A stretch of 42,628 nt of DNA, taken from the NCBI GenBank assembly GCA_030726975.1, contig JANRCO010000017.1:1-42628 (forward strand), given 5' to 3'. The position numbers and the translations under genes were made by a program. This document shows positions 1-2,779 of the stretch, one piece after another (the stretch's first letter is position 1; each line of letters begins with the position of its first letter). The stretch is from Ilumatobacteraceae bacterium (GTDB taxonomy: Bacteria; Actinomycetota; Acidimicrobiia; Acidimicrobiales; Ilumatobacteraceae). Below the pieces are notes generated by a model. That model had not been told where the DNA came from. It was given only the letters and a program-made list of their open reading frames with translations, and made no database searches.

Positions 1-1067
1 CTCCAGAGCCTGCTGCTGCACCAGCACCTGCACCAGCTGCTGCACCAGCACCTGCACCGGCTGCTGAACCAGCACCTGCACCAACTGTTGTGGTGGCTGC
101 TGCTCCAAGTGCAGGTAATGCGCCGTTGTTGTCGCCAGTGGTGCGTCGCCTCATTTCTGAAAACAATCTCGATGTAGCAAAAATTGCGGGCACTGGCCCT
201 GGTGGTCGCATCACACGTGAAGACGTGTTGGCACTCATCGATGCACAGGCCGGCAAGTCAACGCCTGCTGCTCCAGCGCCTGCTGCAGCACCCGCGCCTG
301 CTGCAGCAAAGCCTGCCGCTGTGGCAAAAGCTGCACCAGCGGCCGATAGCAACGAGCGCGAGAAGCGCATCAAGTTGTCGAAAATTCGCAGACTCACTGG
401 CGACCACATGATTATGTCGAAGGCAGTGAGCCCGCACACCTTTAGTGTGGTTGAGGTCGACTATGCAAATGTCGACGTGGTGCGTTCACGCGTGAAGAAC
501 GAATGGAAAAAAACAGAAGGTTTCAGCCTCACTTATTTGCCATTCATCTCGCGAGCAGTTGTCGACGCACTCGTTGAGTTCCCGCATCTCAATGCGTCAC
601 TCGATGGCAATGAACTTGTTGTTCACCAATATGTTGACCTTGGCATTGCAGTAGACCTCGACTTTCAAGGCCTGTTAGTACCTGTTGTGCGTGATGCTGA
701 ATCAAAGCGTTTGCGTGCTTTGGCTCGTGAAATTAGCGATCTTGGTGCTCGTGCAAAATCTCGCAAATTGTCGCCCGATGAAATTCAAGGTGGAACATTC
801 ACCCTGTCGAACAATGGTTCGGCAGGTTCAGTTCTCACCATGGCCGTCATCAACCAACCACAAGTTGGCATTATTTCTACCGATGCCATTGTGCGTAAGC
901 CAGTGGTGGTGAATTTGCCAGATGGTGGCGAAAGTATTGCCATTCATCCGGTGGGCAAGCTTGCAATGAGCTGGGATCACCGCGCTTTCGACGGTGCATA
1001 CGCAGCCGGCTTCCTCTCGCGTGCAAAAGAAATTCTTGAAACTCGCGACTGGTCTGCAGAGCTGTAA
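1..1067 (+). CDS. dlaT: Dihydrolipoamide acyltransferase (E2) of a 2-oxoacid dehydrogenase complex, C-terminal part
   Basis: The gene is cut by the left window edge; its frame is open from base 3 through an Ala/Pro-rich linker, so no start is visible. Next comes a peripheral subunit-binding domain (SPVVRRLISENNLD, then GTGPGGRITREDV), which in this family binds E1 or E3. A second Ala/Pro linker leads to the catalytic acyltransferase domain, which ends with the active-site motif DHRAFDG (His and Asp of HxxxDG). The lipoyl domain must lie upstream of the window. E2 enzymes move acyl groups from lipoyl-lysine to CoA in pyruvate, 2-oxoglutarate or branched-chain dehydrogenase complexes. Which complex this serves cannot be decided here. 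The lipoate synthesis gene follows 14 bp downstream, the order known from mycobacteria (dlaT-lipB-lipA), which is the basis for the symbol. Confidence 0.93.
   Translation, partial: PEPAAAPAPAPAAAPAPAPAAEPAPAPTVVVAAAPSAGNAPLLSPVVRRLISENNLDVAKIAGTGPGGRITREDVLALIDAQAGKSTPAAPAPAAAPAPAAAKPAAVAKAAPAADSNEREKRIKLSKIRRLTGDHMIMSKAVSPHTFSVVEVDYANVDVVRSRVKNEWKKTEGFSLTYLPFISRAVVDALVEFPHLNASLDGNELVVHQYVDLGIAVDLDFQGLLVPVVRDAESKRLRALAREISDLGARAKSRKLSPDEIQGGTFTLSNNGSAGSVLTMAVINQPQVGIISTDAIVRKPVVVNLPDGGESIAIHPVGKLAMSWDHRAFDGAYAAGFLSRAKEILETRDWSAEL
12..83 (+). repeat. Three tandem 24-bp units encoding an Ala/Pro linker
   Basis: Units at 12-35, 36-59 and 60-83 follow the pattern GCTGCTGCACCAGCACCTGC plus four bases, with one or two substitutions each. 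They encode the flexible Ala/Pro linker between lipoyl and subunit-binding domains of the E2 protein. The array may continue left of the window. Such tracts can change length by slippage. Confidence 0.9.
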
Positions 1068-1081
1068 TTCAGCGCTTCATC

Positions 1082-2779
1082 ATGACATCTCCGCTGCATG
1101 TTCGTTGGTTAGGAAAGGTTCCTTATCGCGAAGCGTTTGCAGTGCAACGTTCTCTTTTTGAACACTCTCGCGAACAGCATCTGCTGTTGCTCGAGCATCC
1201 GCACGTGTTTACCTATGGGCCAAGTGCCGACCTCAACAAAAACTTGAAATGCGTGCCCAGTGAAGTAGGTGCTGACTTTGTCAAGGTCAATCGTGGTGGC
1301 GACATTACGTATCACGGCCCTGGCCAATTGGTGGGTTACCCCATTCTCAATTTGCAGCCAAAACATGGCGGCAACGCGGGGCCCGCCGACACCAATGACT
1401 ACGTGTTTCGTGTTGAACAGTTACTCATCGACTCGCTCACTGAATTAGGTCTCAGCGATGTTGGCCGCCTTGCCGATTATCCAGGTGTGTGGGTAGGCGT
1501 CGCAACTCATCAGCCAAGGAAAATTTGTGCCATCGGCGTGCGCCTCAGCCGTGGTCGCACCATGCATGGTTTTGCGATCAACGTGGAAACAGACCTTACG
1601 TACATGCGTGAACACATTGTTCCATGCGGCATTGCAGAATATCCGGTTACTTCGCTGCGTGAAGAAGGAATTGAATCGTCGCTACAAGAAGTATCTGAAG
1701 TGGTAGCGCGTCATGTAGCTCTTGCCTTCGCCGATGGGCAAACTGCCCGTCAAGACGTTGCGTGGTATCACCGCCCAGAAGATCTTTCTGCATTCTCGCG
1801 TGGTGAAGGCGCAGGCGAACCCGTACGTCTCATCTCTCGGCTGGCTCAAGCAGGCGTGGGCGACGGCCTCAAAATTGAAGAACGCAAACCCGATTGGTTG
1901 CGCCCGAAAGTTCGCCTCACTGAAGAAGTGATGGAAACGAAAAAAGTGGTGCGCGATCTTGGCCTTGTCACCGTGTGTGAAGAAGCAGGGTGCCCCAACT
2001 TGTCGGAATGTTGGTCTGACCGCACAGCAACGTTCATGGTGCTCGGAGAACGCTGCACGCGTGCTTGTGGTTTTTGTTTGGTCGATACTCAAAAGCCAGA
2101 AATCCCTGCGAGTGATGAACCCGACCGTGTTGCAGAGGCCATTCAACGTATGGGCCTCTTGCATGCAGTACTCACCATGGTTGCACGCGACGATTTAGCT
2201 GATGGTGGCATGTTGCACGTGGCGCAATGTGTTACTGCAATTCGCAAAGTATCGCCACTGACGCGTATTGAAACTCTCATTTCCGATGTGAAGGGAACCG
2301 ATGCTCTCGACATTTTGCTTACCGTGAAGCCCGATGTTCTGAACCACAACATCGAAACGGTGGCACGGTTGCAGCGTGCGGTGCGCCCGAGTGCTGGCTA
2401 TGCACGCTCTTTGTCGGTGCTTGCTCGTGCCAAGGCTGCTGATCTCACCGCAAAATCGGGTCTCATTATGGGCATGGGCGAAACCCTTGAAGAAGCCGAA
2501 GGAACTCTGGTTGACCTTGCTGGTGTGGGTGTCGACATTGTCACTATTGGCCAATACTTGCGTCCCACCACACATCACCTGCCTGTCGCGCGTTGGGTAG
2601 AGCCTGCAGAGTTTGATCACTTGAAACAATTTGGTGAAGCATTAGGCATTAGCCATGTGGAATCGAGCCCGCTTACTCGTTCGAGCTATCACGCTCGCCA
2701 ATCGGCAGAAGAAGCCGAGCAGAAAAGTATTGATACCGCGGTCTCGTTGACACGCAAACCCCAAGGAGCAAATAAGTGA
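1082..2779 (+). CDS. lipBA: Fused octanoyltransferase-lipoyl synthase (LipB-LipA)
   Basis: One uninterrupted 565-residue frame holds two complete enzymes. Residues 1 to about 235 are LipB, with RGGDITYHGPGQLVGYP at 71-87, the HGFAINV motif, and the dyad Lys147 (RKICAIG) and Cys182 (VPCGI), which transfers octanoate from acyl carrier protein to E2 or GcvH. Residues from about 250 on are LipA: auxiliary-cluster cysteines C299, C304 and C310 (CX4CX5C), radical SAM cysteines C325, C329 and C332 (CX3CX2C), and the terminal RSSY at 533-536 that supplies the serine ligand. LipA inserts two sulfurs to make lipoate. Both parts are near normal family length and keep every key residue, so this looks like a working fusion and not a sequencing error. 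It lies 14 bp after the E2 gene that needs the product, and its stop overlaps the pirin start. Confidence 0.95.
   Translation: MTSPLHVRWLGKVPYREAFAVQRSLFEHSREQHLLLLEHPHVFTYGPSADLNKNLKCVPSEVGADFVKVNRGGDITYHGPGQLVGYPILNLQPKHGGNAGPADTNDYVFRVEQLLIDSLTELGLSDVGRLADYPGVWVGVATHQPRKICAIGVRLSRGRTMHGFAINVETDLTYMREHIVPCGIAEYPVTSLREEGIESSLQEVSEVVARHVALAFADGQTARQDVAWYHRPEDLSAFSRGEGAGEPVRLISRLAQAGVGDGLKIEERKPDWLRPKVRLTEEVMETKKVVRDLGLVTVCEEAGCPNLSECWSDRTATFMVLGERCTRACGFCLVDTQKPEIPASDEPDRVAEAIQRMGLLHAVLTMVARDDLADGGMLHVAQCVTAIRKVSPLTRIETLISDVKGTDALDILLTVKPDVLNHNIETVARLQRAVRPSAGYARSLSVLARAKAADLTAKSGLIMGMGETLEEAEGTLVDLAGVGVDIVTIGQYLRPTTHHLPVARWVEPAEFDHLKQFGEALGISHVESSPLTRSSYHARQSAEEAEQKSIDTAVSLTRKPQGANK

Follow-up and report, generated by a model that had tools for sequence, protein, structure and literature searches.

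The chemistry of the enzyme families behind octanoylation and the sulfuration that follows it is known (PMC9307952, PMC12246082). In both Escherichia coli and Mycobacterium tuberculosis these steps belong to two polypeptides, the octanoyltransferase LipB and the lipoyl synthase LipA (structures 1W66; 5EXI/5EXJ/5EXK), and the two E. coli genes are separated by ybeF. The lipBA operon of Shewanella oneidensis has lipB followed by lipA and is co-transcribed, but its genes are not fused (PMC4398509). The NCBIfam family NF053790 (LplA_LipA_fuse, bifunctional lipoate--protein ligase/lipoyl synthase) has an LplA-type ligase as the N-terminal half in front of LipA, while the fused Lpl(AB) and Lpl(BA) ligases join lipoate-attachment parts without a lipoyl synthase (PMC10332631).

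The window analysed here (42,628 nucleotides from an Ilumatobacteraceae bacterium, contig JANRCO010000017.1 of assembly GCA_030726975.1) encodes LipB and LipA as a single protein (Table 1). It shares domains, folds, catalytic residues and reaction order with the separate enzymes of E. coli and M. tuberculosis and gene order with S. oneidensis, yet the two parts are fused. As in NF053790 an attachment enzyme is found N-terminal to LipA, but this enzyme is LipB, and the protein falls outside that family, scoring 333.4 bits against the 800 bits set for it and matching only profile positions 328–605, which are the LipA part. Lipoate-attachment parts are also fused in the Lpl(AB)/Lpl(BA) ligases, which differ in the missing synthase. 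We consider it very probable that the window protein is a bifunctional LipB-LipA lipoyl-cofactor synthase, which originated from one fusion near the base of the Acidimicrobiia and is the sole source of LipB and LipA found in its host. The two activities, the E2 client and the benefit of tethering we infer.

Table 1. Features of the lipBA locus in window coordinates (residues numbered in the fused protein).
Feature	Position	Strand	Basis
E2 acyltransferase, peripheral-subunit binding and catalytic domains	3..1067	+	PF02817, PF00198
lipBA fusion gene, octanoyltransferase-lipoyl synthase, 565 aa	1082..2779	+	single ORF; NCBIfam, Pfam; conserved in relatives
LipB domain, aa 2–221	1085..1744	+	TIGR00214, PRK14345 over cut-off
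Catalytic Lys147	1520-1522	+	E. coli LipB K135
Catalytic Cys182	1625-1627	+	E. coli LipB C169
Linker, ~40 aa, about aa 222–264	1745..1873	+	alignment; pLDDT; dN/dS
LipA domain, aa 265–547	1874..2722	+	TIGR00510, PRK05481 over cut-off
LipA auxiliary cluster C299/C304/C310 (CX4CX5C)			E. coli LipA C68/C73/C79
LipA radical-SAM cluster C325/C329/C332 (CX3CX2C)			E. coli LipA C94/C98/C101
LipA RSSY motif R533-S534-S535-Y536			E. coli LipA R306-S307-S308-Y309

The one-frame LipB-LipA polypeptide proposed in the preliminary description was borne out by the 565-codon frame, which starts with ATG and contains no internal stops. Both domains were recognised by NCBIfam above the curated cut-offs, and Pfam was concordant. 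The LipB half scored 136.5 bits with TIGR00214 (cut-off 83.55) and the LipA half 341 bits with TIGR00510 (cut-off 310.25). Alignment with the E. coli K-12 reference proteins, read from NC_000913, confirmed the complete octanoyltransferase with its correctly numbered Lys147 and Cys182, which match the Cys-Lys catalytic pair named for LipB (PMC9307952), as well as the complete lipoyl synthase with both iron-sulfur triads and RSSY, whose cluster motifs have assigned roles (PMC12246082). Across 85 representatives, conservation reached at least 97% for the LipB dyad and likewise for the six LipA cysteines and RSS. All catalytic residues are conserved among relatives, and the inactivating changes that had been raised as a concern were absent from the fused gene. 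The predicted model agreed with known folds, giving Z 27.7 against M. tuberculosis LipB 1w66, while aa 247–549 could be aligned with residues 11–306 of M. tuberculosis LipA 5exk (Z 37.0). Foldseek and VIA searches placed the LipB and LipA families on top, followed by fold relatives.

The fused protein was matched in 275 of 296 genomes of the class Acidimicrobiia, the class assignment being taken from named relatives (Acidimicrobiales, Ilumatobacteraceae, Desertimonas flava). LipB was found in 139 of 148 class genomes, and in 138 of these 139 its frame was at least 431 aa long, which is too long for LipB alone. LipA likewise sat in long frames, the short cases being contig-edge pieces in G103 and G143 and a second copy in G052. 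Direct reading of 20 stretches from the class gave a single-frame fusion in 19, and three genomes with two matches (G217, G240 and G161) were also fused. Among 269 Actinomycetota genomes outside the class, no top-ranking match had both domains in one frame; one match (G480) spans both domains but with three stops. Seven loci read outside the class all had separate, adjacent lipB and lipA genes, and annotated matches in the plasmid collection were separate genes only, with no fusion. The lineage mapping suggested earlier therefore shows the fusion as the normal form across the Acidimicrobiia, with separate genes elsewhere in the Actinomycetota sampled, and it is a fixed gene-fusion marker for the class. 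No description of a LipB-LipA fusion was found in the freely available literature searched, and NCBIfam returned no LipB-LipA fusion model for the window protein; automatic annotation in UniProt/InterPro may already list the architecture. The statement that no enzyme of this type had been described holds for that literature, but the type itself is not rare.

A few class genomes deviate from this pattern. The only shorter LipB frame belongs to G092, where a stand-alone LipB (L154, contig C15) was seen and LipA was not detected in the 85% complete genome. The twentieth stretch (L131, contig C83 of G052) holds a second E2-lipB-lipA set with separate, overlapping genes, and the same genome also carries the fusion (L130). 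L131 has a similar GC content and could be either contamination at the contig level or an operon gained by transfer. Four class genomes more than 90% complete (G099, G058, G062 and G146) had no match to the fused protein and may lack the lipoylation pathway of the fusion.

The LipA tree placed every row from the class, the truncated G103 piece included, on the same side of one branch (support 81). The quick LipB tree misplaced one row (G009), and a LipB tree constrained to unite the class rows gave a better fit (AU p 0.79). The trees fit a single origin at the base of the class, when adjacent lipB and lipA genes were joined.

The preliminary description also named the adjacent E2 as a natural client, and the gene neighbourhood supports this. 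The E2 stop codon lies 14 bases 5' of the fusion start, and E2 was the immediate 5' neighbour, in the same orientation, in 73/73 close relatives with enough flank and in 17/20 loci from a spread of class families, unlike the downstream pirin gene, which is not conserved (15/73). The window start (1–90) falls within the Ala/Pro-rich E2 linker, a repeat in which the assembly broke. A lipoyl domain is found at the end of host contig C41 (L164, 1–300), with a short overlap with the window start. As the C41 end reads into the Ala/Pro linker of the window, this lipoyl domain is very probably the E2 N-terminus. It is one of three biotin/lipoyl domains found in the host assembly; GcvH was not found there.

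The known chemistry of the two families indicates how the protein should work. The LipB half would take octanoyl from acyl carrier protein onto Cys182, assisted by Lys147, and would attach it to a lipoyl-domain lysine, with the E2 encoded upstream as the main client. In the LipA half, S-adenosylmethionine and a pair of [4Fe-4S] clusters would then serve to introduce sulfur at C6 and C8 of the octanoyl chain. Tethering would fix the two activities in a 1:1 ratio and ease the hand-off of the octanoylated domain. The gene could be used as a one-gene lipoylation module for engineering. The protein is a natural single chain for testing hand-off from LipB to LipA and might also lead to a structure that captures both sites together.

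The separate lipA and lipB copies that the preliminary description had asked about were absent from the assembly of the host, which comprises 1.5 Mb in 103 contigs and is 78.6% complete. There was no second LipA, the next match scoring 26.8 bits and thus far below cut-off, and no second LipB was found. At this level of completeness the assembly could lack a further lipA or lipB; class genomes more than 90% complete likewise have one LipA/LipB copy. Contig C2 encodes a 216-aa protein of the LplA/LipB fold (L002, 1396–2046, minus strand), flanked by apparent mraZ and HNH endonuclease genes. It has no clear NCBIfam assignment and matched ligase-type models weakly, below their cut-offs, which makes it unlikely to be a second LipB. 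This LplA-like protein may allow salvage.

In the lineage of the window the inter-domain linker contains the motif RQDVAWxHRPxDLSAFSRGEG, and in the alignment DVAWxHRPxDLSAFSRGEG and RLLGRLAxAGV are common to many class members, although some class lineages are without the linker motif. In the structure comparison with 5exk, the last part of the linker matches the extension at the N-terminus of LipA from M. tuberculosis, and RLLGRLAxAGV is located there. A motif of the form [APRS]F[ST]R was present in 57/85 representatives against 0.7 expected by shuffling, where the shuffles ignore relatedness. Among close relatives the linker has a dN/dS of at most 0.02, no higher than the value for the whole gene. 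AlphaFold gave pLDDT below 50 for aa 232–234 and 236–246, so that the centre of the linker is likely disordered. Measured from S191, a landmark in LipB, to P270, a landmark in LipA, the intervening sequence is between 52 and 199 residues long in members of the class.

The fusion might be neutral, having arisen when the stop between adjacent genes was lost with catalysis unaffected, and having been kept because reversal is hard. We regard this as quite possible, if short of an even chance. Adjacent lipB and lipA genes are common outside the class and both domains are ordinary, just as a neutral origin would have it, but against it stand the presence of the fusion almost throughout a deep class and the purifying selection on the linker among close relatives.

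In the bifunctional synthase proposed above, octanoyl is carried by a folded domain some 80 aa in size, which makes a tunnel unlikely, and the variable length of the S191–P270 stretch argues against a rigid one. Raised local concentration or hand-off between docked domains is the more plausible benefit of tethering. AlphaFold modelled the window protein with a pTM of 0.88 and a relative with a short linker with a pTM of 0.86, compared with the roughly 0.5–0.6 that we estimate for two rigid domains without preferred orientation. A preferred domain arrangement is implied by this difference, and the models hint that the LipB and LipA domains dock in a defined way.

A rival reading is true channelling, which the preliminary description had raised. 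Here LipB and LipA would be held in a fixed docking, so that a bound octanoylated domain, or its arm, stays on the protein while it moves from Cys182 to the two LipA clusters. The predicted pTM values, the retention of the linker motif far above the shuffled expectation and the low linker dN/dS would all agree with this, but they have to be set against the widely variable linker length, the predicted disorder at its centre, the lineages from which the motif is missing and the relatedness that the shuffles disregard. On balance we find channelling rather unlikely. If it were true, fixed docking together with a conserved linker motif would make the protein a natural model for lipoyl-cofactor hand-off.

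That the gene is an artefact or decayed, with a missed stop or frameshift or as a dead copy beside real ones elsewhere, is exceedingly improbable: two related loci (L068 and L070) do have apparent frameshifts, but the same frame recurs in many independent assemblies, the residues are conserved, dN/dS is ~0.03 and no other LipA or LipB was found in the host. The frame was intact in seven other assemblies at 96–98% identity and also unbroken in dozens of assemblies at 52–80% identity in a contig scan of genomes with the fused protein, for which the best 80 matches were listed, nearly all named Actinomycetota. The missed frameshift or stop between the domains that had been considered beforehand was accordingly absent. 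Compared with the 96–98% relatives, the entire gene has a dN/dS of 0.024–0.032, showing that lipBA is under purifying selection. The LipB-LipA fusion is real, ancient and conserved, and made of ordinary parts.

Possible start codons are present near the LipA boundary (e.g. GTG at aa 259), from which free LipA could in principle be made. No Shine-Dalgarno-like sequence was found 5' of these starts, and we reject this option, though not fully. Finally, three metagenome-assembled genomes titled Bifidobacterium breve or Acidobacteria (L010, L011 and L012) carry genes that are 80–96% identical to the window gene, and these titles look like mislabelling.
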